Below are positions 24,289 to 42,352 of a stretch of 64,000 nucleotides of DNA, in pieces. Every line of letters begins with the position of its first letter. The first letter of the stretch is position 1. The stretch lies in the NCBI RefSeq assembly GCF_000732325.1, contig NZ_BBIW01000001.1, forward strand, positions 728,376-792,375. The letters are read 5' to 3'. Below the pieces are notes generated by a model, which was given only the letters and a program-made list of their open reading frames with translations, was not told the origin of the DNA and made no database searches. The DNA comes from Paenibacillus sp. TCA20 (GTDB lineage: Bacteria > Bacillota > Bacilli > Paenibacillales > Paenibacillaceae). Position numbers and translations under genes: made by a program.

Positions 24289-24374
24289 AAAAATAAACAC
24301 CCGTACTTAATGTAAAAAGAACAGCTACCAACTGGCAACTGCTCCTGACTGATTTAACTAACGTTTGCCATTAG
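24289..24374 (-). repeat. Cassette-associated element, full type (R1), degenerate left site
   Basis: In plus orientation: CACCCGTACTTAATG (decayed version of CTGCCCGTTAGCTTAATG), an A-run, a hairpin CAGCTACCAACTGGC/ACTGCTC, then AACTAACGTTTGCCATTAG. Same layout as the copies at 26051 and 29816. It follows the 3' end of the GNAT gene at 24441. Confidence 0.6.
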
Positions 24375-24440
24375 ATGAACAAAGGCATCCATCCTTTTCG
24401 CCAGCTGCCTTCGTGAAATCTATCTCATAAATAAATCTCT

Positions 24441-25004
24441 TCAGTATTGAAATTCCTCTTTCAATAACCCCAGCACAACAGTATCATAGTACTTTCCATC
24501 TACAAAAGAATGGTTCCGCATCCGTCCCTCGACAACGAAACCGCATTTTTCATAGGAACGAATAGCTCGCTCGTTTCCACTCCAAGTATCAAGCTGCACA
24601 CGGTTTAAGTTCATCGTTTGAAATAAATAATGGATCAGTGTCTTAAGAGCATCAGATCCAAATCCTTTGCTCCAATACTCTTTATCGCCAATTCCCATTC
24701 CAATCGTGCACCGCCGTGCAACAATATTCATTTCACGGTAGACAATGAAACCAATATGCTTTGGATCTTCCTCCTGCGTATAAATGGAAAATTCACCTTT
24801 TTCCCGTCGATCAAGTGTTCTAATTTCCTTTTCATACGTGGACTCAATCTGGTCCAAGGTAACATGACTATATCGGAATAAGTCCGTGCCTGCACTCATT
24901 TTCGCAAATTCTTCATCGTTTCGCCATTCGAACGTCCTTTTAAAATCCTCTAACGAAACAGGGCGTAGCTGGACTTTTCTTCCTGTAATCAAGAGTGTGA
25001 TCAT
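24441..25004 (-). CDS. GNAT acetyltransferase (RimJ/RimL type)
   Basis: 187 residues. The RimJ/RimL-like features are LRPVSLEDFKRTFEWRND at the start, IGIGDKEYWSKGFGSDALKT-type acetyl-CoA loop near 105-125, and NERAIRSYEKCGFVVEG near 145-160. Such enzymes acetylate ribosomal proteins, antibiotics or small amines; substrate unknown. First gene of the cassette-like region, with a full-type repeat element 67 bp beyond its stop. The start may be ATG 25004 or the TTG four codons later. Confidence 0.85.
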   Translation of the reverse strand: MITLLITGRKVQLRPVSLEDFKRTFEWRNDEEFAKMSAGTDLFRYSHVTLDQIESTYEKEIRTLDRREKGEFSIYTQEEDPKHIGFIVYREMNIVARRCTIGMGIGDKEYWSKGFGSDALKTLIHYLFQTMNLNRVQLDTWSGNERAIRSYEKCGFVVEGRMRNHSFVDGKYYDTVVLGLLKEEFQY

Positions 25005-25104
25005 CCTTCCAATTGTTTTTTTAAGTCTTGTAGCAAAATCAATAAAATAAGTACCTAACGATTATATCAAAAGTAATTCTTGATTATGGGGAGAGTTCTA
25101 ATAT

Positions 25105-25122
25105 AATTAACCTGCCCATTCG
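25105..25122 (-). repeat. Cassette-associated simple site, degenerate
   Basis: AATTAACCTGCCCATTCG resembles CTAACCTGCCCGTTAG with two changes in the right arm. It begins two bases after the cupin stop codon on the minus strand. Confidence 0.45.
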
Positions 25123-25124
25123 TA

Positions 25125-25472
25125 TTATAGACTTTCTGCTGTTTTGCCAGATATATCGTTAGAGGATTTTTCAAAACATAAATTAACCGTTCTTTCATTA
25201 GACCTAGTACGATGCATAACATTACGTGGAATAGTGAAAACTTCTCCAGGTTTGAGTGATATCGTCCTATCTTCCAAATCAATCAAAAGTTCTCCTTCAA
25301 GAACCATGAACAACTCATCACAATCTTCATGCTTATGCCAATGATATTCACCATTAATAACCGCAATACGTAGGACATGATCATTTACTTCATTCACAAT
25401 CCAGTTTCTATATTCGGATATCTCCTTAGTAATGTCATATAAATTAATCTTTTCAAAATGTCCTTCTTTCAT
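25125..25472 (-). CDS. Cupin-domain protein, 115 residues
   Basis: A single cupin barrel. Motif 1 is YHWHKHEDCDELFMVLEGE (two His, Asp/Glu positions) and motif 2 is LKPGEVFTIPRNVMHRTRS, with metal ligands His, His, Glu and His retained. Small cupins of this kind bind sugars or act as isomerases or sensors; role unknown. AAGGGG precedes ATG 25472. It sits alone between two cassette-type sites. Confidence 0.8.
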   Translation of the reverse strand: MKEGHFEKINLYDITKEISEYRNWIVNEVNDHVLRIAVINGEYHWHKHEDCDELFMVLEGELLIDLEDRTISLKPGEVFTIPRNVMHRTRSNERTVNLCFEKSSNDISGKTAESL

Positions 25473-25570
25473 TTCTTAAGACCCCTTTTTCTACGAATGT
25501 GATGTTGTATATTATATGGATGACTTAGAATTGAGCAGCCAATTTATAGGGATTGTTTTCTCTATTCATT

Positions 25571-25590
25571 GAATTTACGTTTCCTGTTAG
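25571..25590 (-). repeat. Cassette-associated simple site, degenerate
   Basis: GAATTTACGTTTCCTGTTAG matches AACTAACGTTTCCCGTTAG of the right-hand site type with three changes. It lies 95 bp upstream of the cupin start, between the cupin and the broken GNAT gene. Confidence 0.5.
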
Positions 25591-25703
25591 ATTATTCCTG
25601 CTGAATACAGGAGACGCTGGCGAATGCTCTATCAGGTTACATTCAAGATAATGTCCTTTAGTTCAATCAGAGTCTTGATTCCGCGCTCCCGCTTTGTGAT
25701 CAG

Positions 25704-25977
25704 TTAGCGAGTTCTTCTATTCATAAAACGTTCAGTATTTCTCATAAATCCATACTTTTCGTAAAGCCCATGACCGTCTAACGTACCGAGTAAGCCCATC
25801 ATACCTTCAAATTCTTCGGTTATAACTTCAATTAATTTCTTCCCTAGTCCCCTACCTCTATATTATTCATTTATGAAAACATCACATAAATTAATAAACC
25901 GTTGCCCAATCAGTAATGATACGTGCAAAACCAATTTGTCTGTCTCTTATTAGAAATTCGTCATACGTTAGTTCCAT
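25704..25977 (-). pseudogene. GNAT acetyltransferase remnant
   Basis: Reading from ATG 25977 gives MELTYDEFLIRDRQIGFARI then ITDWATV, a typical GNAT beta-strand pair. A frameshift near 25890 leads to FINLCDVFINE, then an in-frame TAA, then YRGRGLGKKLIEVITEEFE (the acetyl-CoA loop) and GHGLYEKYGFM to the end. At least one frameshift and one nonsense codon make it non-functional, and the N-terminus is missing. The final TAA lies inside a GTTAG core (25703-25707), as in other cassettes here. Confidence 0.8.
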
Positions 25978-26050
25978 ATAAGCACCCCACTCTCTCAAGT
26001 AAATACTATTTTCTCCAAGAGATTTACAAGTCCTTCCTAAATTTCGTGCT

Positions 26051-26140
26051 CAACCAAACTGCCAGTTTGCTTAATGAAAAAGAGCAGCTGCCAATCGGCA
26101 ATCTGCTCTATACTGTTTTTAAACTAACGTTTCCCGTTAG
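26051..26140 (-). repeat. Cassette-associated element, full type (R2)
   Basis: Layout in plus orientation: CAACCAAACTGCCAGTTTGC, then TTAATGAAAA, a hairpin GAGCAGCTGCC-AATC-GGCAATCTGCTC, a T-rich spacer, then AAACTAACGTTTCCCGTTAG. Both outer sites are inverted repeats. The IS110 element begins directly after the final GTTAG. Confidence 0.75.
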
Positions 26141-26179
26141 CCACCCATGCCCCTCCCGGGGCACCACAGAATAATGAAA

Positions 26180-26387
26180 ATTTTATGGATACGTTCTATA
26201 CTATTCTTACGGCTGGCGAGGGAGGTCGATAAACTATGGTGTCCTGAACCCTTCCGTTAGTCTGACCCCAGCGACCTCGGTGCACCATTGAATGTCGCTC
26301 CTGTTTAGGAAGCACGCAGGGTAGATTAACCCTTTTTGGTTGTTGCACCAGCCCCCAATTTCACTTTGCCGTAGAAAGGTGATTGTC
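26180..26387 (+). ncRNA. Candidate IS110 bridge RNA region
   Basis: The long non-coding segment ahead of an IS110-type transposase is where bridge RNAs with target- and donor-binding loops are encoded. Here it is GC-rich, and GAGGTCG (26222-26228) can pair with CGACCTC (26272-26278) around a 43-base loop. The loop contains CCGTTAG (26264-26270), matching the insertion-site core. No computed fold is available, so this is position plus pattern. Confidence 0.45.
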
Positions 26388-27611
26388 ATGGATGTTCTCA
26401 TCGAACGAGCATGCGGTTTGGATGTTCACAAGAAGAACATTACTGCATGCATCATTACACCTGAAGGAAAGGAGATTAAAACCTTCCGTACCCACACGGT
26501 CTTTATCTTAGAACTCATCGATTGGATTAAGAACCACCGCTGCACTCATGTGGCCATGGAGAGCACCGGTGTGTTTTGGAAACCCATCGTGAACCTGCTG
26601 GAAGCCGAAGATATCGAATTCCTAGTCGTCAACGCACAGCACATAAAAGCAGTTCCCGGACGGAAAACCGACGTGAAAGATGCGGAATGGATTTGCAATC
26701 TACTTCGGCATGGTCTGCTTAAACCTAGCTATATTCCCGATCGTAACCAACGTGAAATGAGAGAACTTGTTCGCTATCGTCGGAGTCTGATTCAAGAACG
26801 TTCTCGTGAACATAACCGTGTGCAAAAAGTTTTGGAAGGTGCCAATATCAAGCTCGCTTCTGTCGTCTCAGACATTATGGGGCTCTCGAGCCGAGACATG
26901 CTTGAAGCCATGGTTAATGGTGAAACCGATCCGGAGACACTGGCTGGCTTTGCACGCAGATCCATGAAGAGAAAGAAAGAAGAACTCGAGCTCGCGCTGA
27001 AGGGCAACATGAGTTCACATCAGCGGATGATGTTAAAAACCATGCTTACCCATATCGACTTCCTGAACGAACAAATCATAGAGCTGGATATGGAGGTAGC
27101 CAAACGGCTCGCCCCTTTCCAAAAAGACCTGGATCGACTGGATAGCATTCCGGGAATCGCAGCCCGAACGACAGAACAAATCCTCGCCGAGATTGGCACG
27201 GACATTGCTTCTCGTTTCCCGAGTTCAGCCCATTTATGCTCATGGGTTGGTCTTGTTCCAGGTCACAATGAAAGTGCAGGCAAACGCAAGTCCTCCAAAA
27301 CACGTAAAGGCAACAAATATCTCCGATCCGCACTCATCGAAGCTTCTCATTCCATACGGGGATCTGATAATTATCTCGGTGCCCAGTACAGGCGAATTGC
27401 AGCTCGCAAAGGAAGGCACCGCGCAGCTGTTGCTGTAGCCCATTCCATCATGACCATTGCTTACCATTTACTAACCAGGCAAGAAGATTATAAAGACTTA
27501 GGCTCCGATTATTTTGAGAAACGACACCAAGATGCGATCGTCAAACAAACCGTTCGAAAGCTAGAAAACCTTGGATTTACCGTAACCCTGGCCACATCTG
27601 AAGTATCCTAA
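26388..27611 (+). CDS. IS110 family transposase (DEDD type)
   Basis: 407 residues. The N-terminal DEDD RuvC-like domain begins CGLDVHKKNITACI with the first Asp, has AMESTGVFWKP, and KTDVKDAEWICNLLRHG as the last acidic motif. The C-terminal Tnp_20 domain has LDSIPGIAARTTEQILAEIG and SAHLCSWVGLVPGHNESAGK with the catalytic Ser. Full length and uninterrupted, so probably active. ATG 26388 follows AAAGGTG. Confidence 0.92.
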   Translation: MDVLIERACGLDVHKKNITACIITPEGKEIKTFRTHTVFILELIDWIKNHRCTHVAMESTGVFWKPIVNLLEAEDIEFLVVNAQHIKAVPGRKTDVKDAEWICNLLRHGLLKPSYIPDRNQREMRELVRYRRSLIQERSREHNRVQKVLEGANIKLASVVSDIMGLSSRDMLEAMVNGETDPETLAGFARRSMKRKKEELELALKGNMSSHQRMMLKTMLTHIDFLNEQIIELDMEVAKRLAPFQKDLDRLDSIPGIAARTTEQILAEIGTDIASRFPSSAHLCSWVGLVPGHNESAGKRKSSKTRKGNKYLRSALIEASHSIRGSDNYLGAQYRRIAARKGRHRAAVAVAHSIMTIAYHLLTRQEDYKDLGSDYFEKRHQDAIVKQTVRKLENLGFTVTLATSEVS

Positions 27612-27716
27612 TTAACCTGCTCAAACCAAGCGACGCAGCCTTTTTAAAAATCTTGCAAGCTGCGCCTAGTTTCGTATTGTCTTTTTTAGAGTTACGCTAT
27701 GAATTAATTTTCAGGG

Positions 27717-27790
27717 TAGCTTAATGAAATAGATGTAAACTTCAGTTAGATATTTATCTAATCGGTAATCGGCCCATGTTCTTGTCCCCC
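27717..27790 (-). repeat. Cassette-associated element, second type (copy 1)
   Basis: TAGCTTAATGAAATAG, then ATGTAAACTTCAGTTAG, a hairpin TTAGATA-TTTA-TCTAA and ATCGGTAATCGGCCCATG. A roughly 80% identical copy is at 31696-31765. It is the element downstream of the gene at 27987 and is cut from its left site by the IS110 copy. Confidence 0.6.
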
Positions 27791-27986
27791 GACAAAAGAT
27801 GATGAATGCTCAAGCGCTTGCTGTGGTTTTTGGGTTTTACACTCCCTGTATTTGCATCTCTTGGATCTGCAATGTTCTAGTCTTCTGACAGTTGATTGGC
27901 GATGTTACTTTTAAACTTGTGATCCGCTCTATACTTAAAAATCCTGAGCAATTTCGATGTTACATCTATCTAGTCCGGGTTTTTTT

Positions 27987-28784
27987 CTAGTTATATATTA
28001 TAAGCATCTGTGACACAAATTGATCTTCTTTTGATAGAAAAGCTATTTTATTGAAATGTTTTGCTAGTTTTTGTAACTCTTCACTTGTTCTAACCTCTTC
28101 TTCAGTCCAGCCTACAAAATAGAACATAATATAAGGAGCTAGAGTAAGATGCTTATAAATAGAGTTTATGAATGATAATTCTTCCTCGTTAACCTCAATA
28201 CCCATTAATTGATCTCTATTAGGCCTATACTTGTAAGTAATCATATTAGAATGACTTTCGTATAAATGATATCTATCCTTACTCAAAAAGGATAGAATAA
28301 AAGAATTTAAACGGGATTCTTCATATAGAGTTTTATATATACCAAGGATTTTCTTTTTCGTGTCCATTCTGACCATGTTGATTTGAATATGGATCGTGCT
28401 TTTTTTGTATACCACACGTATATTATCAAAGATTGAAAGCAATTCACATATTAATTGATCGTTTACTGGATCATTGTTATTAGGAATTTGCAGTTCGCCT
28501 CCATACTGTGCTTGAGAGTGTTCTGCTTTATTTCCCACTGCTCTATACATTATGTAGAATTGATACAATGCGAATTGTACTTCTATATTGGCGAGTATTA
28601 CTTCTTTGATAGACTTCAATTCAAACGGAATCTCTTTTACGTTTAATCCAGAATTTAAGATCTCTCTCTTTATTATTTTATTATCTTTTATTGTATAGCT
28701 TTCCTGCTTAAGTACATCTTCATGTACTTGGTTTGCATTATTAATTAGATTGCTGTGCGTTTTAAAAACAACTTTTTCAATCAT
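27987..28784 (-). CDS. Hypothetical protein, 265 residues
   Basis: AAGGAGGGG precedes ATG 28784. The product is soluble, AT-rich in codon use and rich in Ile, Asn, Lys and Tyr, unlike the flanking core genes. Residues 55-135 and 150-265 look like two alpha/beta halves; WTEEEVRTSEELQKLAKHF near 230 is amphipathic. I do not recognise any family. Probably a cassette-type accessory gene; a second-type repeat element lies beyond its stop. Confidence 0.6.
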   Translation of the reverse strand: MIEKVVFKTHSNLINNANQVHEDVLKQESYTIKDNKIIKREILNSGLNVKEIPFELKSIKEVILANIEVQFALYQFYIMYRAVGNKAEHSQAQYGGELQIPNNNDPVNDQLICELLSIFDNIRVVYKKSTIHIQINMVRMDTKKKILGIYKTLYEESRLNSFILSFLSKDRYHLYESHSNMITYKYRPNRDQLMGIEVNEEELSFINSIYKHLTLAPYIMFYFVGWTEEEVRTSEELQKLAKHFNKIAFLSKEDQFVSQMLIIYN

Positions 28785-28871
28785 TAATTACCCCTCCTTA
28801 AGAAATGATACAAGCGCATAGCTCAATCGCCACGCGCTCATAATGAACTTATTTTAATATTCGAAACAGAA

Positions 28872-29552
28872 TTAAAAATCACTCTCCCAGTCAAAGAATA
28901 AGTCAGCATTATTCCAACCACCTAATAAGTAAACTTCTACATAACCTTCAACCTGTATATTATCGGAGACAAAATTAATTAGTATTTCATCATGCACAGC
29001 AACATGTAAATTTCTCATCGGGGGAATATTCCATTTATTTATATCCATCCTTACAGATCCAACATTTGTACCTGCTCCAGCATATCCTTTAGCTCTAGAT
29101 ATCGATGTTTCAATACCACCACCTGTAACGTTGATGTCTAAATATACATATATTTCTCCTTTATTTGAACTTATTTTATCAAATATATAAGTTGGCGTAG
29201 CACTGACTTTAGCAACTTGAGTTTGAAAGGGACTTACCTCTAAAGATTCAGAAGTGTCAACGTTAGAATATGTACTATCCCTGTAAACTTCAACAGTGAC
29301 TGGTTCCAACCTTTCAATTCTCTCAATGATTCTATTAGCCTCTTCCTCACTGTTCACCGGAATTGAAGTTAAAGACCCAGCGTGGTTCTCGTAAAGGCCT
29401 TCTATTATTTCCTGTGCATTCTCTTCAACAAAAAAAGTAGTCCAACTTTGAGACGTGTCACTACTATCAACACGTTCAGTTGCAAAGGCAGTTCCAAACA
29501 TAGTAGTTACTAACGAAAAAACCAAGAAAAATGACAATATCTTCTTCTTCAA
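28872..29552 (-). CDS. Secreted hypothetical protein, 226 residues
   Basis: The TTG start at 29552 has GGAGG about 7 bases upstream and gives a clear Sec signal peptide (MKKKILSFFLVFSLVTTMFG) with a likely cleavage after AFA. The mature protein contains a beta-rich C-terminal domain (about 130-226) with ISRAKGYAGAGTNVGSVRMD and HVAVHDEILI, reminiscent of structural or toxin-like beta proteins, but no family is recognised. It is 87 bp upstream of the 265-residue gene on the same strand. Confidence 0.65.
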   Translation of the reverse strand: MKKKILSFFLVFSLVTTMFGTAFATERVDSSDTSQSWTTFFVEENAQEIIEGLYENHAGSLTSIPVNSEEEANRIIERIERLEPVTVEVYRDSTYSNVDTSESLEVSPFQTQVAKVSATPTYIFDKISSNKGEIYVYLDINVTGGGIETSISRAKGYAGAGTNVGSVRMDINKWNIPPMRNLHVAVHDEILINFVSDNIQVEGYVEVYLLGGWNNADLFFDWESDF

Positions 29553-29567
29553 TGACTCTTCCTCCAT

Positions 29568-29815
29568 TTCGAATTGGAATTTGTTTACTAATTACAACAT
29601 AATTATACATCATTTCCTTACATGCATGTGACATTCGACAAAGAATCTAATGCTCTTACAAAATTAGTCATCAAATTGGTTTTTTATACAATTCTTCTAT
29701 CAGCCTTAAAATCCTTCATGGGGAGCAATATCAGGCCCCCTATTTAGAAGAGTTTCATACGACTTTTGTCCAACACTCAAATCAGAAACGCAACGCGTAT
29801 TATGCCCTTGTTTAA
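29568..29815. other. Non-coding stretch, no recognisable feature
   Basis: About 250 bp of AT-rich sequence between the secreted protein start and the element at 29816. It holds the secreted protein's promoter region, but short frames on both strands are broken by stops and match nothing I know. Confidence 0.4.
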
Positions 29816-29906
29816 TTGAACTAACCTGCCCGTTAGCTTAATGAAAAAGGAGCAGCTGCCAACCGGCGAACTGCCCCGTGTTATACTGAACTAACGTTTC
29901 CCGTAA
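29816..29906 (-). repeat. Cassette-associated element, full type (R3), best preserved
   Basis: TTGAACTAACCTGCCCGTTA then GCTTAATGAAAAAGG, hairpin GAGCAGCTGCC-AACC-GGCGAACTGCCCC... , then GAACTAACGTTTCCCGTAAC. Two inverted-repeat sites flank one hairpin over about 90 bp. The right site overlaps the stop codon of the broken membrane-protein gene at 29891. Confidence 0.78.
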
Positions 29907-30090
29907 CTTTTCCTCTTGTAGAGCCTATCTATAGAAAGTATTAAAATATGTACTATTGTAATAAGAGATGCCATCTGTATAGACTTTATAAAGCTAACTC
30001 CTACAAAGTAATAACTCATAAGCAAAGTTGCAAAAAATAAACTCCCACACCTAATATAAACTTAAACATATTTGATCGGTATCTCCTCAT
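29891..30090 (-). pseudogene. Small two-helix membrane protein, frameshifted at an A6 run
   Basis: ATG 30090 starts MRRYRSNMFKFILGVGVYF and then hits a stop. In the next frame the sequence continues FATLLMSYYFVGVSFIK, then a second helix (ASLITIVHILILSI) and DRLYKRKSYGKR. One extra base in the A6 run at 30032-30037 would join them into about 66 residues. The final TAG (29891-29893) lies inside the right-hand core of element R3. Either decayed or a homopolymer sequencing error. Confidence 0.55.
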
Positions 30091-30168
30091 ATTACCAGTA
30101 CTCTTTTATAGACTTCTACAAATAGTTCCAGTATCATTTCCAATGTATCTAATATGTGGGGTGGTTTA

Positions 30169-30341
30169 ATGCAGGGCATAGCAGTAGTCTATGGTTTTTA
30201 TCTTATGCCTATTTTTTTATTCATTTCTATTTACCTTTTTTACTTAACGAGAAGAGAACGACAGCAAACAGAATGTTTATCTCTTTTAGCTTAACAATGG
30301 CAGCGTGGTCTTATTTTGTGGTTATCCTTATCGGAAAGTAA
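30169..30341 (+). pseudogene. Small membrane protein with a probable frameshift
   Basis: ATG 30169 begins MQGIAVVYGFYLMPIFLFIS then IYLFYLTRRERQQ, a transmembrane helix with a basic end, and reaches a stop at 30292. The next frame supplies a second helix, NRMFISFSLTMAAWSYFVVI then LIGK, to the stop at 30341. The two halves look like one two-helix protein of about 57 residues broken near 30265-30275. Ribosome site is weak (GGGGTGG). Low certainty. Confidence 0.4.
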
Positions 30342-30412
30342 GAGTTATGGATCCCTTTTTGAGGTTTATAGAGCAACAAGAATAAGCCTACTATTTAAAT
30401 CCATCATCAGCC

Positions 30413-30448
30413 TTTTACAAGATCTACCGTGGTGGATCTTGTAAAAAA
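30413..30448. terminator. Bidirectional terminator
   Basis: TTACAAGATC and GATCTTGTAA form a 10-bp stem with CC/GG inside the loop. T residues lie on the left and A residues on the right, so it can serve the DUF2716 gene on the minus strand. Confidence 0.6.
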
Positions 30449-30520
30449 GTATCTGCGGACTGGAAAACTACTCCGTTGTTGTTTTGATCTAATGTGTCCC
30501 ATTAGCGGAATCAAAAATGA

Positions 30521-30994
30521 TCAACTTTGTCGTACAACTTTCCCTAATATAGATGGAAAGTTGATTTCAAACTGTTGTAATAGTTCAGCTCCAAAAATAG
30601 TAATTGTCTGTTCCCATGGGTGTCCTAAGTATCCCCATTTGAATTCATTATGTAAATAAAAATAATAATCGCCGTCGGGGTAAAATGGCATTTTCCATTT
30701 CGCCGATTCTTTTTCCAAGTGTGGATAATACAAGAAGGACTCGTGCTGCCAGTCCAAAGCAAAGACATACTCATCTTGTTCAGTTATTGCTTTTAAAGCG
30801 TTGATACATTTCTCTTCTAAATCATCAATATCTGAATCCTTATGTTCAGTTATCTTGTAAGTGATATAAGGGTTCGGTAAGGTATAAGAAGGCCAGTCCT
30901 TACTGCGAGTACTTGGGTTAAAATTAAAAACCTCGTAGAACTTATCCCAAACAATGCGATATTGCTCATCTGTTAATGGAATCCAATTCTCCAT
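30521..30994 (-). CDS. DUF2716 family protein
   Basis: 157 residues. WIPLTDEQYRIVWDKFYEVF at the N-terminus, ALDWQHESFLYYPH in the middle and PFYPDGDYYFYLHNEFKWGYLGHPWEQTI toward the end match the Trp/Tyr-rich pattern of DUF2716 proteins, whose role is unknown. GGGAGG precedes ATG 30994. It is a single minus-strand gene between a terminator and a cassette-type site. Confidence 0.65.
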   Translation of the reverse strand: MENWIPLTDEQYRIVWDKFYEVFNFNPSTRSKDWPSYTLPNPYITYKITEHKDSDIDDLEEKCINALKAITEQDEYVFALDWQHESFLYYPHLEKESAKWKMPFYPDGDYYFYLHNEFKWGYLGHPWEQTITIFGAELLQQFEINFPSILGKVVRQS

Positions 30995-31032
30995 TTGAAG
31001 TACCTCCCAATGCCATTTCCCTTTATCTTACC

Positions 31033-31057
31033 ATTGAACTATCCCTGCCCGTTAGTT
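31033..31057 (-). repeat. Cassette-associated simple site (R4)
   Basis: ATTGAACTATCCCTGCCCGT followed by TAGTTC. Inverted arms AACTA/TAGTT. The TAA stop of the remnant gene at 31052 lies inside it. Confidence 0.65.
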
Positions 31058-31233
31058 CAACAAAGTTGCTCCAATGACTAATTCTCTCCTTGCGATCTTG
31101 TGATAAAAATTTGTAATCCCTTCTATACCGAGTGTCCCATCATTCAATTTTTTATCCTCATTGAAAGGATATATAGAAACTAATCCAGTCTTAATTCTTA
31201 AGTTTTATATGGGGAATGTTCTAAATTAGTCAT
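31052..31233 (-). pseudogene. Remnant small gene ending inside a cassette site
   Basis: From ATG 31233 the frame reads MTNLEHSPYKT and stops. The adjacent frame then gives 45 uninterrupted codons (RIKTGLVSIYPFNEDKKLND, then GTLGIEGITNFYHKIARREL) and ends AACTAA within the GTTAG core. This looks like a short gene with one frameshift near 31200. No clear ribosome site; family not recognised. Confidence 0.4.
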
Positions 31234-31257
31234 CGTGAACAGGTCTTCAACAAGATA

Positions 31258-31611
31258 TCACTTCACTCTTTCGGAAATATTTTTACTTATTTCTTCAGGA
31301 TTTTGAACACCAATGATCAACTTTGATATTTTGAACATGCCAACTTTAAAGCTATTCAAATCTAAATGGAGGGTTTCAAGCTCTTTTTCAAAAAAGTGTA
31401 GTTGAAAGCCACCATTGGATCTAAATAACCCATTTCTCATTTCTCCGAATAAAGCACCATATAGTTTAAAACCATCTGGTATCGGCCTACCTGTTGTTGT
31501 TCCCTTGATTGAAGAGTATGGAATTTGCAACCCTTTATCTAAGTTTAAAAACGGAGAGTTTCCAAAATCGATATTTACGTAGGTTTCCATTAGTTGAATT
31601 TTTCGTTCCAT
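31258..31611 (-). CDS. Hypothetical protein, 117 residues
   Basis: ATG 31611 (MERKIQLMETYVNIDFG) lies 8 bases after a GGGGGG run; an earlier in-frame Met at 31653 has no site. The product is soluble and beta-rich, with PDGFKLYGALFGEMRNGLF and HLDLNSFKVGMFKISKLIIG. No family recognised. Single minus-strand gene; the site-bearing remnant gene lies downstream. Confidence 0.55.
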   Translation of the reverse strand: MERKIQLMETYVNIDFGNSPFLNLDKGLQIPYSSIKGTTTGRPIPDGFKLYGALFGEMRNGLFRSNGGFQLHFFEKELETLHLDLNSFKVGMFKISKLIIGVQNPEEISKNISERVK

Positions 31612-31680
31612 ATTTTGATCCCCCCAACGCCCTATAATTACATATAATACCATGAATACCTCTTTTGTTTGAAAAAGTCT

Positions 31681-31765
31681 ACGCTCTGCCTGTTAGCTTA
31701 AAGGAATATCTGTAAACTTTAGTTGGATATTTATCTATTCGGGAATCGGACCACGTTCTTCTCAT
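31681..31765 (-). repeat. Cassette-associated element, second type (copy 2, R5)
   Basis: TCTGCCTGTTAGCTTAAAGG, then ATCTGTAAACTTTAGTTGG, a weakened hairpin GGATA-TTTA-TCTA and TTCGGGAATCGGACCACG. Aligns at about 80% with 27717-27790. It lies downstream of the MerR gene. Confidence 0.6.
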
Positions 31766-34999: not shown

Positions 35000-35009
35000 G
35001 CCGATCGTC

Positions 35010-35047: not shown

Positions 35048-35148
35048 ACATATAGCCATAGATTAAATGATGACAAAAGCGCACTGTCTCATATGACTTT
35101 TTCAGCCTATACTCATGGCATCAAGCAACAGAGGAGGAGATGTTGAAC

Positions 35149-36042: not shown

Positions 36043-36135
36043 AGGGCAGACATTTTTTTCGAAGGCTAGTCTATGCGAGATCCCTTGTCATGAAAAAGAA
36101 GTTTCATAAAAGCTTTCGTTCACCTTGTACTCGTC

Positions 36136-36429
36136 CGAAGGCGTATCCCTGGGCTTCGAAGGGAGGAAGTCGCTTATCTTGCTAATGCCAATCTTACTTA
36201 CTATACCTGGCTAGAGCAGGGCTAGAGAAGAATCCTCCCCCTGATGTGTTGTCTTCAAATAAGCCAAGAACTACAGCTGAACGATGACGAGCTGAAGCAC
36301 TTACTCGATCTGTCCGCACCCGATCCGGTCCGTTTCAGTATGGCACCAAAACAGAAGAACTCGATGCCTGATTGTATTGAAGTAAAGACACCACCAGTTC
36401 GAGGTGATGTCTTTTTTTTGCACAAATAG
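36136..36429 (+). pseudogene. Remnant of an XRE/MmyB-type transcriptional regulator
   Basis: The frame from 36136 reads RRRIPGLRREEVAYLANANL then TYYTWLEQG, the unmistakable helix-turn-helix of MmyB-like XRE regulators, followed by an in-frame TAG. It then continues QISQELQLNDDELKHLLDLS, the usual next helix, and runs into unrelated sequence. The start and the ligand domain are missing and the promoter-proximal part is out of frame. Confidence 0.75.
36383..36419 (+). terminator. Rho-independent terminator
   Basis: AAAGACACCACC pairs with GGTGATGTCTTT (one mismatch) around AGTTCGA and is followed by eight T residues. Confidence 0.75.
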
Positions 36430-36431
36430 TT

Positions 36432-36461
36432 ATTAAACTATCCTGCCCGTTAGCTTAGCGA
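36432..36461 (-). repeat. Cassette-associated simple site (R6)
   Basis: ATTAAACTATCCTGCCCGTT followed by AGCTTAGCG. It lies 29 bases past the stop of the LysE gene on the minus strand. Confidence 0.65.
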
Positions 36462-36489
36462 AGTGAATTTTTAAAACTGTGTTGCCAAT

Positions 36490-37122
36490 TTATTGAGGTG
36501 CTTTCGTTGCAAGTAATTTTAATCCTAATCCGATAAATATAACCCCAGTTATTTTGTTTAAGTAGGTACCAATTCTTTCGTTTACATTAATCTTCTTAGT
36601 GATGAAAGAGGAAAAATAAGCAATAAAAAGGCACCACATCAATCCAGTGAATGAAAATGTTAGTCCTAAAATTATGAATGGCATTGGACCAGAAGACTTT
36701 GTATCAATAAATTGTGGAAGAAAGGATAGGAAAAATAAAGATACTTTTGGATTTGTAAGACTTGTCAACATCCCTTGTATGTATATTTTTCTGGGGTTAA
36801 GGTTATTTGTTTTCGATGCACTGAAATTTAAATTTGATTTATCAAGTAACATTCTAATGCCCAGATAAACTAAATACATAACTCCGACTATTTTTATGAT
36901 ATTGAATAATACAATGGACTTTGTAAGTATAATCGACAAACCAAAAGCAACTAACAAAGTATGTATTAACGATCCACTAATAATACCGAAAACAGAATAT
37001 ACTCCAGCTTTTCTACCCTGCGAAACACTTCTTCCAACAATATACATTGTATCTGCCCCAGGAATTAAATTGATAAGAATTCCTGTAAGCAAAAATATTT
37101 CGTAATTTATTATTCCAAACAT
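36490..37122 (-). CDS. LysE family translocator
   Basis: 210 residues with six hydrophobic segments. Family landmarks are LINLIPGADTMYIVGRSVSQ near residue 20 (NPGP-like loop), GSLIHTLLVAFGLS, and LTSLTNPKVSLFFLSFLPQF near 122. LysE/RhtB proteins export amino acids or related compounds. GGGGG precedes ATG 37122. AT-rich codon use. Stands alone with cassette-type sites on both sides (36432 and 37216). Confidence 0.88.
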   Translation of the reverse strand: MFGIINYEIFLLTGILINLIPGADTMYIVGRSVSQGRKAGVYSVFGIISGSLIHTLLVAFGLSIILTKSIVLFNIIKIVGVMYLVYLGIRMLLDKSNLNFSASKTNNLNPRKIYIQGMLTSLTNPKVSLFFLSFLPQFIDTKSSGPMPFIILGLTFSFTGLMWCLFIAYFSSFITKKINVNERIGTYLNKITGVIFIGLGLKLLATKAPQ

Positions 37123-37215
37123 TTTGTTAATTCCCCCTCTCCATTATGAAATACATAAAGAAGAAACAATACTATAGATAAAATAGTAAGTCAATCATTG
37201 ATTAACATGCTATCT

Positions 37216-37241
37216 TGTTAATATCCTGCCCGTTAGTTGAA
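37216..37241 (-). repeat. Cassette-associated simple site (R7)
   Basis: TTAATATCCTGCCCGTTAGT followed by TGAAGC, 20 bases past the stop of the GNAT gene at 37261. Confidence 0.65.
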
Positions 37242-37260
37242 GCATCTAAAAATCAAAATC

Positions 37261-37806
37261 CTATTCGTTAATTCTCCCCATTAATATAGTGCTATAGAAT
37301 TTATTATCAGACAAAACTTTGTCATTTTTTAAAATCCCTTCTATTTCAAAACCATTACGTTTATATAGCTCAATAGCTTTTTTATTTATTTCTAGAACAT
37401 TTAAACTAATCTTTTTAATCCCATTAGATTCAGCCCACCGAATAGATTCTCTTAATAGATTTTTACCTATCCCATACCCCCAGTACTCTTTTAATACACA
37501 TACCCCAAATTCTACTTTATGAGAAAATCTTTTTAAGATATTCCCTTCACATCTAGAGAAACCAACGATTTGTTCATTAGCTTCAACTACTAAGAATAGA
37601 TTATTGCTGCTCTTAGAATCGTTATCGATTAATTTTCTAAATCCTAATTCATCTATGTATCCTTCACCCTGTTCCCTGTCTAGATATTCAGTCTCTCCAT
37701 CTATCTGTATTCTTACTTCAGAAAGCTTCTTTGCATCCTCTTCCTTAGCGGATCTTATAAAGTAATGTAAATTATTTACATAATATTCCACTTGATTAAT
37801 CCTCAT
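37261..37806 (-). CDS. GNAT family N-acetyltransferase
   Basis: 181 residues. FIRSAKEEDAKKLSEVR at the start, VCVLKEYWGYGIGKNLLRES (acetyl-CoA loop) near 105 and NKKAIELYKRNGFEIEG near 142 follow the RimI/RimL-like GNAT order. GAGGGAGGG precedes ATG 37806. Low GC and rich in Asn, Lys and Ile. Single gene between two cassette-type sites. Acceptor unknown. Confidence 0.88.
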   Translation of the reverse strand: MRINQVEYYVNNLHYFIRSAKEEDAKKLSEVRIQIDGETEYLDREQGEGYIDELGFRKLIDNDSKSSNNLFLVVEANEQIVGFSRCEGNILKRFSHKVEFGVCVLKEYWGYGIGKNLLRESIRWAESNGIKKISLNVLEINKKAIELYKRNGFEIEGILKNDKVLSDNKFYSTILMGRINE

Positions 37807-37868
37807 TGGGCCCTCCCTCTTAAAAATCTAATAAATCATACTATATATTTTGAATACACAGTAGAACT

Positions 37869-37898
37869 ATTAAACCAACCTGCCCGTTAGCTTAATGA
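37869..37898 (-). repeat. Cassette-associated simple site (R8)
   Basis: ATTAAACCAACCTGCCCGTT followed by AGCTTAATGAGG, 39 bases past the acetamidase stop. Confidence 0.7.
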
Positions 37899-37936
37899 GG
37901 TAGACTTACCTCTAATTACTTTTCATTTTTAAACTC

Positions 37937-38869
37937 TCATTTGATGGAGCCATGGTTCAATACTGCATGAACTCCACGAACACCATTCACCAATTGTGTA
38001 ATGCGCAAATCGACGACGAGACTTGCAAGAGCCAATGCTTCTTTACGCTCAAATCCGTACATTTCACCCATTAAGTCCAACATACCTTCTAAAGCTATCA
38101 TTGACGCTTCATTTAAATCCTCATGGAAACCCATTGTAATCCAGGAAGTTGGAGTTTTAGCTCGAGGCATGTTAATGCTCATCTCTTCATGTACGATAAA
38201 TTCCAGATCAACGATATCCATTGGGCATTCTAATGCCGGACATCCTACTTCACCATCTCCTTGTACGGCGTGTCCATCACCGACTGAAAATAATCCACCT
38301 GGCACTGGGATTGGCAAGTATAATGAACTCCCCGCGATTAGTTCTTTACAGTCAATGTTTCCACCACAGTAGCGCGGTGGAAATGTAGAATGAACACCAG
38401 GCTCATTAGGAGGCATACCCATTACACCCATAAAAGGGTTTAAAACTACCTTATGTCCTTTATTACTTGTGCCAACCATTAACTCGCTGTCTATATTCCA
38501 ATTCAGATGAAATTCTTCACCATCAGCTACCCCTAATCTCTTATTAATTGGATGTTGAAACCCACCCGCACTATTCCATCCCCAAGATCCTGGACGTATT
38601 TCATTAATTTTTATTTCGAGTGTCATCCCGGGTTCTGCGCCACGTATAGCAATAGGTCCACACAAAGCATGTCCCCCATCTCTTGTACGTTCTCTAGGCT
38701 CAAATCTTTTCCTTGAACCTGAAGAGGGAAATGGTTCCATTCCCCAACCTGCATCCAAAGTTTTATAACAAATTGAATCTCCGGAGTTAATGGTTAGAAT
38801 CGGATTGTATTCCTTTGAGAATGAGCCATGAAGTGTTGATCTTTCAGGATGTATCGAAAATTTAGCCAT
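37937..38869 (-). CDS. Acetamidase/formamidase family protein
   Basis: 310 residues, the normal length of the FmdA/AmdA amidohydrolase family that releases ammonia from short amides. Typical segments are GHALCGPIAIRGAEPGMTLE, HSTFPPRYCGGNIDCKEL, GGLFSVGDGHAVQGDGEVG and the C-terminal ITQLVNGVRGVHAVL. No signal peptide. GGAGG precedes ATG 38869. GC content is closer to core genes than its neighbours. Single gene between cassette-type sites. Confidence 0.9.
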   Translation of the reverse strand: MAKFSIHPERSTLHGSFSKEYNPILTINSGDSICYKTLDAGWGMEPFPSSGSRKRFEPRERTRDGGHALCGPIAIRGAEPGMTLEIKINEIRPGSWGWNSAGGFQHPINKRLGVADGEEFHLNWNIDSELMVGTSNKGHKVVLNPFMGVMGMPPNEPGVHSTFPPRYCGGNIDCKELIAGSSLYLPIPVPGGLFSVGDGHAVQGDGEVGCPALECPMDIVDLEFIVHEEMSINMPRAKTPTSWITMGFHEDLNEASMIALEGMLDLMGEMYGFERKEALALASLVVDLRITQLVNGVRGVHAVLNHGSIK

Positions 38870-38963
38870 CGTATTCCTCCAGAATTTTATTTACTTATAA
38901 GTTTACAATTATTTAAAATTATGTAATAAATATATGTCAATTTACTCTTTTCAAAACTATTTT

Positions 38964-38990
38964 ATTAAACTAATCTGCCTGTTAGTTGAA
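38964..38990 (-). repeat. Cassette-associated simple site (R9), overlaps the fabZ stop
   Basis: ATTAAACTAATCTGCCTGTT followed by AGTTGAA. The minus-strand reading AACTAAC supplies the last sense codon and TAA stop of the FabZ gene. Confidence 0.7.
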
Positions 38991-39422
38991 TGCCTCAATA
39001 GAATTAAACGCAAACATTATTTCTGCTTCACAAACCAATTCATTGTTTACCATTGCGATGCCTGTTCCTTTGACAATCTGTCCCTTGGTTCGGGTCACTT
39101 CGAATTCAAGATGGAGCTGATCCCCTGGTTTAACTTGCTTTTTGAACCGACAATGATCAATACCAGTCAGTAACCCTATCTTATGGTTATTGCTCTCTAA
39201 GTTAGACATAACGATACCACCCACCTGTGCCAATGCTTCTACAATCAAGACTCCAGGCATGACAGGATAGTCAGGAAAGTGACCAAGGAAATAAGGTTCA
39301 TTGAAAGTCACATTTTTAATTCCAACAGCTTTCTTTCCTTCAACAATTTCTAAGATTCTATCGACCAAAAGAAAGGGATATCTATGGGGAATAAGCTCTT
39401 TAATTTGATTAATATCCAGCAT
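38982..39422 (-). CDS. fabZ: 3-hydroxyacyl-ACP dehydratase FabZ, solitary copy
   Basis: 146-residue hot-dog-fold dehydratase of fatty acid synthesis. [13 protein letters not shown] and [20 protein letters not shown] are present with catalytic His48 and Glu62. AGGAGG precedes ATG 39422. No other fatty-acid gene is nearby, and the usual chromosomal fabZ of Bacillota sits elsewhere, so this may be an extra copy carried in the accessory region. Its stop codon is formed by the cassette-type site. Confidence 0.9.
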
Positions 39423-39457
39423 GGATTTTCCTCCTCTAATATTGGGTTATAAGCATT

Positions 39458-39474
39458 CTAACGTCATTCATTAG
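39458..39474 (-). repeat. Cassette-associated simple site, degenerate
   Basis: CTAACGTCATTCATTAG keeps both arms of CTAACGTTTCCCGTTAG with an altered centre, just past the remnant frame that ends at 39482. Confidence 0.5.
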
Positions 39475-39481
39475 AAGATGG

Positions 39482-39646
39482 TTAGATCAATAGCCGAGAA
39501 ACTAGTGCGTCAGCCTCATGATTATACCCTAATAAACAAAGATTATTGGGAATTCGATCAATTATAGTTTTTTCACTAGAGCAAGTATATTGAAGATGGT
39601 GAACGAGGGCTAACATGGCTATAATTTCATTAGACACTGCTGACAT
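39482..39646 (-). pseudogene. Remnant minus-strand reading frame
   Basis: From ATG 39646 the frame reads MSAVSNEIIAMLALVHHLQY and ends LLGYNHEADALVSRLLI before a TAA inside GTTAG (39481-39485). The frame stays open upstream to about 39740, overlapping the plus-strand gene. There is no ribosome site. It looks like the tail of a lost cassette gene; family not recognised. Confidence 0.35.
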
Positions 39647-39693
39647 GAATTGTTTGATACCTACTGTATCTAAAGTATTTACAGTTACTTGGA

Positions 39694-40227
39694 ATGATCT
39701 TTCTAGACGAAGCTTCTTCTTTGTTAAATAGAATTAAAAGGATTGATGATGTGTTAAAGTTAGAGGAATGTTTTAAGAAAGTAATAATTTATTTTAATGA
39801 GGAGCATATGTTTATATGCCCACATCAGCCGGTGCTTAATGAAGCCGGAGAGTTTCTAAATTTTTTAGATGATGGACCCGTTCTAGAATTAGAGCGTAAT
39901 ATTACTATTGAAGAGTTACAGAATGCGATATTCGAAACTCTTAAGAAATCCAATCTGTATATTCTCAGTCAGCGCCCTAAACGTTTAGGGATTGAAAGAC
40001 ATCTAAAAGTAAGGAGCTACAAAGCAGCTACAAAAGATAAGAGCTTAATATCACTAGGTTATTCTCCTGATGAGTCTATTGAGTATAGAATAATTGCTTA
40101 CAGGAAGGAAAATAGTCTCGTCTATCTCAAGGAAAAAGAACTTTTAATAAAACAAGAAGATGCAATGCAGAATAATCAACTTGCTAAAACAGTGATTGAA
40201 TTTATGGAACTATTACGAAATAAATGA
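39694..40227 (+). CDS. Hypothetical protein, 177 residues
   Basis: A soluble, mostly helical protein with ERNITIEELQNAIFETLKKS and KSLISLGYSPDESIEYRII. No family recognised. The ATG at 39694 lacks a convincing ribosome site, so the start is uncertain. It is one of few plus-strand genes in the cassette-like region. Confidence 0.5.
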   Translation: MIFLDEASSLLNRIKRIDDVLKLEECFKKVIIYFNEEHMFICPHQPVLNEAGEFLNFLDDGPVLELERNITIEELQNAIFETLKKSNLYILSQRPKRLGIERHLKVRSYKAATKDKSLISLGYSPDESIEYRIIAYRKENSLVYLKEKELLIKQEDAMQNNQLAKTVIEFMELLRNK

Positions 40228-40248
40228 ACTAAACACTAATCAAATACC

Positions 40249-40277
40249 CTACCATTATACTAATGGTAGAATTTAAT
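40249..40277 (+). terminator. Possible weak terminator
   Basis: CTACCATTA and TAATGGTAG form a 9-bp stem with a 3-base loop 21 bases past the stop; the tail (AATTTAATT) is only moderately T-rich. Confidence 0.35.
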
Positions 40278-40361
40278 TAGTTCATATTCCCACTCGTTCG
40301 TACAAGGGATAAGATAAACCTTACCTTTCGGTAAGCCCCACATGGTTATTTACTTCATTAT

Positions 40362-40388
40362 TTAAACCAGACAGCCCGTTAATGAAGT
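40362..40388. repeat. Cassette-associated simple site, degenerate (R10)
   Basis: TTTAAACCAGACAGCCCGTT followed by AATGAAG: the left arm and the CCCGTT core remain, but the AGCTT of the right arm is deleted. Confidence 0.5.
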
Positions 40389-40471
40389 TTATTAAATTTG
40401 TAATCAAACCTTAGTTGAAAAAGCCGTGTTAAAGTAGTATCGAACAAATATTCACAAAAGGAGTGGGCAAA

Positions 40472-40729
40472 ATCAAATCACATTTTCAGAGTTTGGCTGT
40501 CATTTTCTTAGGTGTTTGTTTAGTAATCAGCTCATGGTTAATTTCAGATGCTATTAAAGATCAACCAAATATTCAACCAAATATTCAAATACCAGATAAT
40601 AGCCTTACCACTAACAAGTACGAATTTATCCCTGTATCAGAAAAACATTTTATTATTCTCGATACCGAAAGTGGCACCTATTTAGAAAAAAAGGATAACT
40701 CTGAAGCATGGACTATAAACTCACCTTGA
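40472..40729 (+). CDS. Small membrane-anchored protein, about 85 residues, probable ATC start
   Basis: AAAAGGAG (40456-40463) is 8 bases from ATC 40472, giving MKSHFQSLAVIFLGVCLVIS then SWLI, a signal-anchor or signal peptide. The remainder is hydrophilic with FIPVSEKHFIILDTESGTYL. The standard-codon alternative is GTG 40463, which lies inside the Shine-Dalgarno itself. Short proteins of this kind are common in Bacillota; role unknown. Confidence 0.55.
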   Translation: MKSHFQSLAVIFLGVCLVISSWLISDAIKDQPNIQPNIQIPDNSLTTNKYEFIPVSEKHFIILDTESGTYLEKKDNSEAWTINSP

Positions 40730-40767
40730 ATATATATTTCCATATGACAGATCGTGATTTGAAGTGC

Positions 40768-40802
40768 GAAAGGAACAGCTACCAATCGGCAACCTGCTCC
40801 AT
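40768..40802. repeat. Central hairpin of a full-type element (R11)
   Basis: GGAACAGCTACC-AATC-GGCAACCTGCTCC matches the central hairpin of elements at 24289, 26051 and 29816. The two outer sites are no longer recognisable. Confidence 0.5.
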
Positions 40803-40809
40803 TGAATAT

Positions 40810-40905
40810 TTAATTGATGATCATTAATAAAACCATTACAAAAATCATTCCTATAACCCACTCAGTAACACCGAGGCCTTTCCACGCATTTTGATTACTT
40901 TCCAT
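40810..40905 (-). CDS. Very small membrane protein, 31 residues
   Basis: MESNQNAWKGLGVTEWVIGM followed by IFVMVLLMIIN: a hydrophilic start and one transmembrane helix. Ribosome site is weak (AGAGAAACAAG). Supported mainly by its composition and position next to another small membrane gene. Confidence 0.4.
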   Translation of the reverse strand: MESNQNAWKGLGVTEWVIGMIFVMVLLMIIN

Positions 40906-41036
40906 TTTTCTTGTTTCTCTTATCAATCTGAGCAATTTCAATCAATCTCACCTCTAATAAATTGATCTTACGATATTTACAACCAGTAAGTTACAATGCA
41001 TTTGGATTTTACTGGAATAAATCAAAGACACTAATT

Positions 41037-41183
41037 TTATATAAGAATCACGATTAAAGAAATCACAAATCCTTGCGCCGCAGCTATAATCAAATCATTT
41101 TTCCAGTAGGATTTTGTGTATAGACTAAATAATCTGAAGATAATAAAACCGCAAATTGCCATTAGAAACCAGTTCATTAACAT
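41037..41183 (-). CDS. Small two-helix membrane protein, 48 residues
   Basis: AAGGAG lies 8 bases before ATG 41183. The product has two hydrophobic helices (MLMNWFLMAICGFIIFRLF and DLIIAAAQGFVISLIVILI) joined by a short basic loop (YTKSYWKN). Function unknown. It is 53 bases downstream of the nucleotidyltransferase gene. Confidence 0.6.
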   Translation of the reverse strand: MLMNWFLMAICGFIIFRLFSLYTKSYWKNDLIIAAAQGFVISLIVILI

Positions 41184-41236
41184 TCCAACCACTCCTTCGT
41201 GAACTGTTGGTAAAGTCCCATTGGATCGTTATGTCA

Positions 41237-42352
41237 TCAAATTTTATTTATGTAATATGATTCGAATTCAGTGACAGAGTCAAACTTGTTTACAGCTACA
41301 CCTTCTGTTTTGAGGTGATTTTCTAGCTTTTCCATTAATTGCAGTACAGCTAAACGCAACGGTTCAAAATTTGTGGGATTTAACAATGCGATAAGATCGG
41401 GGTATCCATAACTATCATAGAATTCACGATATTCACCAAGGTCAGCAGTACTAGGCCAACGTCCTTTCTCTGCAGCATACAAAATTCGAGATAAACTGTC
41501 TTGTACACTTATTGCTACGAAAAATGCCGTTTCGTAGTGGCCTGTTTCGCACGCGGTTAGCAGTTTATTCATCATCCCTCTCTCTTCTTCGTAGTATCCA
41601 CTCATGTGTCCTTTATAGAAGCGCACCACTTCTTGACTATTTCGTCGCATCGAGATAAGACGAAGTGTATCTGTAGTTAATTTTTCACACGCTAACATTA
41701 TTTCTTCTGGAATTAAACTAAACATTAGGGTATCCAGGTGCTTGTCCAGTTGCTCCGGTTTAAGAGAAAGATTCCGGACTTGCTTACGATAGTGCCCCCA
41801 CATACGTGTATAATAGGTTTGATTCAACAACCCAAGAGACTTAAAGATATTTGCTGCGATCTCTTGAGATTGGGTTCGGAAATAACTCAGATCTTTGGCA
41901 TTCTCAGCAATTCGCATTTTAGCTATGCTAATAAGACAATTGTTCAATATCGATTCGGCTTTGGTGATCATTTCAGCTGTTTTGGATTCACTTCCCATGT
42001 TGGATATAGTCTCACGTAGTTCTATTAATCTCGCAAGATCATCATCTGATCGGACATATAACAGCTCACAGTCTGCTATAATTGTCGTGCTCCAATCTTC
42101 AGCAGTTGCCATTCTCTCTGCACGTTCCCACCCAATTGGCCAGAAGTCAAAACTTATACCATCAATAATGAACTGACACTCTACTTCTCTCCCTCTGGTT
42201 GTAGCTGGAATGAAAAAGAAATCCAAATCTGATCGTTCAGTCGCTCGACCCTGCAGATATGACCCATAAAATCCTACAATCGCTACATCTTGAGGATAAT
42301 GATCCTTAATATGCCTGATAATAATGTCAGCAACAGCAAATACATCAACCAT
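41237..42352 (-). CDS. Nucleotidyltransferase-domain protein, 371 residues
   Basis: The N-terminal 110 residues are a Pol-beta-type nucleotidyltransferase: VGFYGSYLQGRATERSDLDF has the GS motif and the DxD metal pair, with a later acidic residue in GISFDFWP. Residues 130-365 form a helical domain, similar in plan to aminoglycoside adenylyltransferases or kanamycin nucleotidyltransferase relatives. Drug modification is possible, but the substrate cannot be read. GGGAGG precedes ATG 42352. Last gene of the cassette-like region. Confidence 0.75.
   Translation of the reverse strand: MVDVFAVADIIIRHIKDHYPQDVAIVGFYGSYLQGRATERSDLDFFFIPATTRGREVECQFIIDGISFDFWPIGWERAERMATAEDWSTTIIADCELLYVRSDDDLARLIELRETISNMGSESKTAEMITKAESILNNCLISIAKMRIAENAKDLSYFRTQSQEIAANIFKSLGLLNQTYYTRMWGHYRKQVRNLSLKPEQLDKHLDTLMFSLIPEEIMLACEKLTTDTLRLISMRRNSQEVVRFYKGHMSGYYEEERGMMNKLLTACETGHYETAFFVAISVQDSLSRILYAAEKGRWPSTADLGEYREFYDSYGYPDLIALLNPTNFEPLRLAVLQLMEKLENHLKTEGVAVNKFDSVTEFESYYINKI

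Follow-up and report, generated by a model that had tools for sequence, protein, structure and literature searches.

A single-gene cassette array on dif-like sites in Paenibacillus, and a cassette-borne Xer-type recombinase that likely moves it

Integrons are a known route for storing and shuffling single genes, the pdif modules of Acinetobacter are flanked by sites in inverse orientation, and Cre/lox and other single-recombinase Xer systems use sites with inverted arms and an asymmetric centre. According to part of the text of a 2022 survey, integrons are extremely rare in Firmicutes, with one complete case (PMC9024848), and part of another article gives pdif sites as 28 bp long, with two inverted 11-bp arms and a 6-bp centre (PMC12907356). 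Here we describe a 64,000-nucleotide stretch of the genome of Paenibacillus sp. TCA20 (contig NZ_BBIW01000001.1, positions 728,376 to 792,375), hereafter the window, whose positions are counted from its first letter. In our judgement the window very probably holds an array of single-gene cassettes on directly repeated 28-bp dif-like sites, likely moved by an Xer-type tyrosine recombinase, here called CasInt, that is itself borne on a cassette.

A sequence-only reading of the window had pointed to a cassette system, mobile or by now a relict, that uses another kind of recombination site, on the basis of at least ten short elements in one orientation. The first core it named has six matches in the window at up to 3 mismatches against a mean of 0.42 in shuffled sequence, and the second has four against a mean of 0.01. 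A 28-nucleotide weight matrix trained on 136 sites, all from other genomes, finds eight clear sites spanning 25.1-39.0 kb (starts at 25101, 26048, 29815, 31034, 36432, 37215, 37869 and 38964; scores 13.9-43.8), and at the identical threshold first-order Markov controls gave one match summed over six sequences. All eight are on the minus strand, and thus in one orientation, as had been claimed; the weak plus-strand scores of 9.9 and 9.7 are two of these sites seen from the opposite strand. The remainder of the supposed ten or more consists of about four degenerate copies, one at 24289 and three that are decayed, a half-site or split by an insertion sequence (31686-31696, 25572-25590 and 27717-27724). 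Seven of the eight copies originally listed are thus recovered by the matrix, and the eighth, at 24289, is decayed and lacks its right half. The sites lie 3′ of single minus-strand genes, at distances from overlap with the stop codon to a few hundred bases, and the genes between them are mutually unrelated (two GNATs, a cupin, LysE, acetamidase, FabZ, DUF2716 and genes of no assigned function; Table 1). A scan of the whole genome with CTAACGGGCAGGTTAG at up to 2 mismatches gives six matches, of which contig 28 has one and the window the other five. Matches at 3 mismatches were left uncounted, since the reversed control then exceeds the pattern (51 against 27).

The consensus of the 136 sites, ATTAAACTAAC-GGGCAG-GTTAGTTTAAT (28 bp, 34.8 bits), has perfect inverted 11-bp arms flanking a 6-bp centre, which is the Xer/dif layout. 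The bits of the core are inflated because the sites were chosen by it, whereas the outer arms played no part in that choice. Of the 136 sites, 110 have the exact centre GGGCAG, 113 have exact CTAAC and 52 exact GTTAG. The two arms of a site match each other at 64.3% of positions, compared with 63.4% when right arms are shuffled among sites, and this absence of covariation is in line with a right arm that is brought in by the next cassette. A composite build is found in 46 of 141 sites, which have a variant half-site and hairpin 58-74 bp upstream, in many cases with T residues after the hairpin; this build resembles attC, the majority of sites are without it, and consensus folding of the 46 composite sites returned no base pairs. 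Given the minority of sites with a left half and the lack of covariation between arms, the element appears closer to a dif-type site recognised as double-stranded DNA than to a folded attC. Aligned blocks of about 70 bp containing TTAGATAAATATCTAACTGAA also precede some cores (27717-27787 and 31700-31770 in the window, and 1514-1583 of locus L009), and this block looks, from its sequence, like a second kind of left element.

Sites of this type are widespread among relatives: one or more matches with no more than 1 mismatch occur in 170 of the 295 family genomes. At up to 2 mismatches the pattern outnumbers its reversal in four genomes (72 against 2 in G220, 84 against 3 in G008, 56 against 7 in G026 and 39 against 7 in G123). 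The question of whether the sites cluster can be answered in six single-contig genomes, where they form one-strand clusters, for example five within about 6 kb in G080 and sixteen within about 49 kb in G197; lone weak matches are distrusted because the reversed pattern yields 4 to 11 matches in each of these genomes. In G080, G197, G053 and G281 the sites are mostly on the plus strand in the first half of the contig and on the minus strand in the second, as if they were co-oriented with replication, and in G115 and G090 every site is on one strand.

Comparison of close relatives provides a view of how these arrays change. G080 and G123 share recombinases that are 91-99.7% identical, and most of their long common blocks are 90-97% identical; the blocks that run from site to site carry different neighbours. 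At one position an uninterrupted site in G123 corresponds to a 1833-bp insert in G080, the left border of which falls within CTAACGGG/CAGG. Across this pair 18 of 38 ends of homology are within 25 bp of a core, compared with 3.4% expected at random, and in G053 and G197, where 17 blocks are scrambled in order, 16 of 33 ends are near a core, compared with 9.9% expected. Relatives of the FabA/FabZ-like gene of the window (38982..39422) that are 85% identical by tblastn lie in the arrays of L188 (genome G197) and L200 (genome G336), and in the first an exact core follows 84 bp past the match. The 131-residue gene at 31258..31653 has matches in 11 of 75 genomes of the genus, namely its own, nine that carry the gene, and G286, where the match is 36 bp only. 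A recognisable core lies about 100 bp ahead of it in five of the nine, and G115, G315, G070 and G259 have only a core remnant; its neighbours differ across the nine genomes, except for a downstream flank common to G070 and G259. Some cassettes contain several or divergent genes. Collinearity of genes and spacers in relatives had been named as grounds for abandoning the cassette idea; five relatives have retained the genes for the two-component system and the CAAX protein (33190-36042), and in the stretches fetched around these, which extend about 15 kb per side except for 3.4 kb on one side in G107, none of 19 other window open reading frames (23489-43144) is found. At the level of genome sequence these comparisons establish that in related genomes cassettes have been gained, lost and reordered, with many of the breakpoints at the site core, and the expectation that the sites would flank variable genes is supported.

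Could the sites be ordinary repeats or terminators, with the rearrangements arising through homologous recombination or IS110 transposition? Many of them bear a hairpin followed by T residues, and IS110 elements are found in the arrays. However, many breakpoints fall at an 11-bp core and 11 bp is too short for RecA-type exchange, the IS110 elements sit in sites as insertions rather than at the ends of cassettes, and a repeat alone leaves unaccounted for a recombinase gene that has the same terminal site. We regard this explanation as very improbable.

That recombinase, CasInt, belongs to a close family of proteins of about 280 residues, many copies of which are fragmentary. Identity to the first member is 83-93% in sixteen intact copies, all of which retain the R, K, H-R, H and Y residues that we take to be the catalytic set. 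The array of G197 contains pieces of a tyrosine recombinase, that of G123 a remnant, and those of G220 and G053 shorter ones; the larger G197 piece has matches in 88 of 394 family genomes at E ≤1e-25, of which those at 33-44% identity are other integrases. The best 80 named CasInt loci are predominantly from Paenibacillus (72), with four from Bacillus sp. FJAT-28004, two from Brevibacillus, and one each from Cohnella and a Bacilli metagenome-assembled genome; Paenibacillus pabuli NBRC 13638 and Paenibacillus sp. L3-i20 (loci L228 and L233) are examples of soil strains in which the copy is intact. A phage collection contains no more than two relatives, both distant (33-35% identity). A 39-row tree unites CasInt with nearly all of its sisters in one clade (support 100/100; one pre-labelled sister row is placed elsewhere) and IntI with the Paenibacillus IntI-like proteins in another (100/99); XerD, XerS and XerC-like proteins are separate, and the backbone is weakly supported. 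The AlphaFold model of CasInt is poor, with a mean pLDDT (predicted local distance difference test) of 45.5.

CasInt genes sit among unrelated genes inside arrays, and the gene is followed by a core, commonly about 45 bp past the stop codon, in 38 of 58 loci when 2 mismatches are allowed (the gene being located in 62 of the 80 loci, and 18 left out). With at most 1 mismatch and within 95 bp, a core follows in 39 of 69 non-duplicate loci. In 594 pairs of site-bearing CasInt loci homology stops at 8 to 20 nucleotides past the start of the core (core +8 to +20) in 235, in 3 it extends beyond the core start by over 40 bp, and in most of the others it stops before the core; prior to the selection of site-bearing loci 271 of 1554 downstream ends fall at core +8 to +20. 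The presence of the same site 3′ of CasInt, together with homology that ends there, indicates that the recombinase is itself a cassette, with no set place at the array head. CasInt or a fragment of it is present in 51 of 295 genomes, in a list compiled by hand, and sites are found in 47 of these 51 compared with 123 of the 244 others (Fisher p = 5e-9, a value that ignores shared descent), so that the sites do co-occur with one particular recombinase family, as had been suggested for a mobile system. From location, linkage and co-occurrence we infer that CasInt catalyses the shuffling.

The genome to which the window belongs encodes eight tyrosine recombinases, including XerD and XerS above their model cut-offs; all eight lie off the contig of the window, in agreement with the earlier statement that the window itself has none. 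A search of this genome for CasInt found none, the best match being 33% identical and at the XerD locus. For this reason the window array would be either a relict or dependent on CasInt supplied in trans.

Several observations weigh against this role for CasInt and against the cassette array as we describe it. CasInt's own site is unrecognised in 30 of the 69 loci, and its upstream borders could not be mapped, with only 13 of 1587 near a core among the CasInt pairs. CasInt occurs in four genomes that lack any site with 1 mismatch or fewer, and 123 genomes without CasInt have at least one. Three array-rich genomes (G220, G123 and G080), like that of the window, have no intact CasInt at a search threshold of E ≤1e-25, and G080 and G123 differ by shuffles despite this. 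About half of the ends of homology in both genome pairs are not near any recognised core. The composite sites look like attC and have a left half for which this model does not account, and the matches to the site go beyond one simple rule, those at 2 mismatches including noise at the level of the control.

An alternative is that host Xer recombinases move cassettes at dif-like sites, as in pdif modules, with CasInt as a passenger. In its favour, the sites have the 11+6+11 build of dif, the site-bearing genomes compared encode XerD and XerS, and intact CasInt is missing from some site-rich ones. Against it, the CasInt gene has this site at its own end and tends to be found in the genomes that have such sites, similar XerC-like recombinases are also found in genomes free of sites, and the sites are all direct and none inverted, so we think this unlikely. 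An XerC-like protein present in all four genomes compared, and near site clusters in several of them, was considered as the enzyme and dropped, since similar proteins occur in site-free genomes.

The genus does contain IntI-like integrases, and these too were rejected as the missing enzyme because they adjoin arrays of a different repeat; for that reason we set them aside as a second system. Their genes, which encode a HARP-like N-terminal stretch (E 0.0027-0.07, under the Pfam cut-off), lie beside a conserved radical-SAM-like gene in G115, G183, G006, G147, G170 and G154 (L096-L104, L110). Downstream are single-gene arrays with attC-like repeats, TAACATAATATTCACG..CGTGAATACAGGAACGTTA, in six copies in L097, ten in L099, six in L100, seven in L102, fourteen in L104 and eight in L110. 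With integrases that group with IntI, this second system looks like a true chromosomal integron in Paenibacillus. Similar nucleotidyltransferase-like, kinase-like and P-loop genes, so named by sequence, are found in both types of array (L097, L099 and L104, and L187-L189), as if the two systems share a gene pool.

It is pertinent to ask whether the window could then be the remnant of a true integron, an attC cluster without its integrase in which folded single-stranded sites were once moved by an IntI-type enzyme, possibly the Paenibacillus IntI-like protein. The single-gene cassettes in one orientation, the 46 composite sites of left half, hairpin and right half, and the IntI-like integrases of the genus are all in keeping with this idea. 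The examined IntI-like integrases, however, adjoin a different repeat, with one clear copy only of the dif-like site in the surrounding stretches; the site-rich G220, G123 and G080 have no IntI-like protein among their recombinases; the sites are conserved in sequence and most are without a left half; and CasInt falls outside the IntI clade. We find an origin as an integron remnant improbable, and prefer a dif-like cassette array served by CasInt.

Related arrays are also found on plasmids. CasInt relatives of 34-50% identity are encoded on nine plasmids, mainly of Bacillaceae and Planococcaceae, and on one of these, the Peribacillus simplex plasmid pSHB26, a variant site with the centre GGGGCAG is matched 22 times and the reversed pattern never. 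Sixteen of its sites form a one-strand array at 3.6-35.5 kb, in which the distance from the end of the gene ahead is 71-231 bp for 13 sites and 363, 490 and 768 bp for the other three, with the gene ahead on the opposite strand in three cases; a further site, with 3 mismatches, is 37 bp past the recombinase gene. Plasmid pSP10-266k of Sporosarcina psychrophila (L314) also encodes a CasInt relative and has variant sites beside a GNAT gene, a mercury-resistance operon and an IS110 element. Group II introns are known at attC sites, and a group II intron reverse transcriptase gene (L326:13256-14584) ends 149 bp ahead of a site in the pSHB26 array.

Insertion sequences of the IS110 family are found inserted at such sites. 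The window copy (26141-27716) lies within a site core and splits the site, and all three copies in the pSHB26 array start at a site arm (L326:3650-5045, 27165-28560 and 33182-34580), with at least one in each orientation of the palindrome. Some IS1111 elements insert at attC, according to part of the text of one article (PMC11187229). The likeness is that in the window and in the plasmid array IS110/IS1111-type elements are found at a cassette recombination site; the difference is that the target here is the dif-like cassette site rather than attC.

Table 1. Coordinates of the array features in the window, in ascending order.
Feature	Positions	Strand	Evidence
Decayed composite site; left half and hairpin retained, right site gone	24300..24374	-	
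GNAT acetyltransferase cassette gene	24441..25004	-	Pfam PF13302
Degenerate recombination site over the stop of the cupin gene	25101..25128	-	matrix score 13.9
Cupin cassette gene	25125..25472	-	Pfam PF07883
Left half-site alone	25572..25590	-	3 mismatches
Composite site: left half 26124-26140, hairpin, degenerate right site 26048-26075	26048..26140	-	matrix score 20.2
IS110-family element within a site; flanks ..TTAAGCTA and CTAACGGGAAACG..	26141..27716		transposase 26340-27611, +
Two genes without Pfam match (27987-28784, 28872-29567), probable cassette content	27987..29567	-	
Composite site: left variant half-site, terminator-like hairpin, full site 29815-29842	29813..29913	-	matrix score 43.8
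DUF2716 cassette gene	30521..30994	-	Pfam PF10898
Recombination site, right arm shifted	31034..31061	-	matrix score 16.6
131-residue cassette gene, no assigned function	31258..31653	-	also in nine other genomes of the genus, neighbours different
Degenerate site core CTAACAGGCAG; homology with other genomes starts here	31686..31696	-	
Recombination site	36432..36459	-	matrix score 39.0
LysE-type exporter cassette gene	36490..37122	-	Pfam PF01810
Recombination site	37215..37242	-	matrix score 26.4
GNAT acetyltransferase cassette gene	37261..37806	-	Pfam PF00583
Recombination site	37869..37896	-	matrix score 39.9
Acetamidase/formamidase family cassette gene	37937..38869	-	Pfam PF03069
Recombination site ATTCAACTAAC-AGGCAG-ATTAGTTTAAT, overlapping the stop codon of the FabZ-like gene	38964..38991	-	matrix score 33.8
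FabA/FabZ-like cassette gene	38982..39422	-	Pfam PF07977; tblastn

A simple scheme can be proposed for how such arrays would move. CasInt would bind the double-stranded site as monomers, on both arms, and cleave it around the 6-bp centre, and recombination between two direct sites would release a circle of one gene and one site. The circle could insert at any other site, the right arm of a site thus coming with the next cassette, and arrays may spread on plasmids as well. CasInt cassettes would decay once placed, leaving recombinase-free arrays such as that of the window, which would be mobile only when CasInt is provided from outside.

We know of no system that combines these parts and for that reason judge this one to be new in kind, cassette shuffling as a function being already known; in the open-access literature we found no such system in Paenibacillus or Bacillales. 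If this account is correct, the arrays would be to Gram-positive bacteria what integrons are to Gram-negative ones and would explain part of the gene turnover in these soil bacteria, with arrays of dozens of genes and a plasmid form in Bacillaceae. They would also offer a second and possibly simpler model of cassette recombination, one in which a recombinase is able to move as a cassette of its own and the engine is thereby spread along with the cargo.

Like integrons and integrase-free attC clusters, these are long arrays of mostly single genes, each with a 3′ site and all in one orientation, associated with a tyrosine recombinase, and a third of the sites are composite and attC-like. They differ in that CasInt is in another clade and scores 98.8 bits on the integron-integrase model, against a cut-off of 265 that none of the eight recombinases of the window genome exceeds either; in that CasInt is found among the cassettes, whereas the integron integrase is fixed beside attI, for which no search was made here; and in that the sites are conserved in sequence with a dif-like dyad. 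The attC sites of integrons keep a common fold while their sequence varies. With the pdif modules of Acinetobacter plasmids, as far as the part of the article cited above describes them, they share the 28-bp 11+6+11 layout, seen here in the consensus, and the shuffling of site-flanked genes; the cassette sites here are nonetheless of another sequence, lie in one-strand clusters with a single orientation rather than as inverse pairs, and have a dedicated recombinase gene that ends in the same site. Cre/lox is similar in its inverted arms, its asymmetric centre and the one recombinase presumed to act on both arms, and dissimilar in that the arrays here are open-ended, with many sites and cargo genes. 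On the sequence features compared, the array is not an integron by two of them (integrase family and fixed platform) and not a pdif module by site orientation, and by analogy it would work like both. We think it probable that the Bacillales have independently evolved a counterpart of the integron, with dif-like-site cassettes on chromosomes and plasmids, an Xer-type recombinase that is itself a cassette, and no fixed platform.

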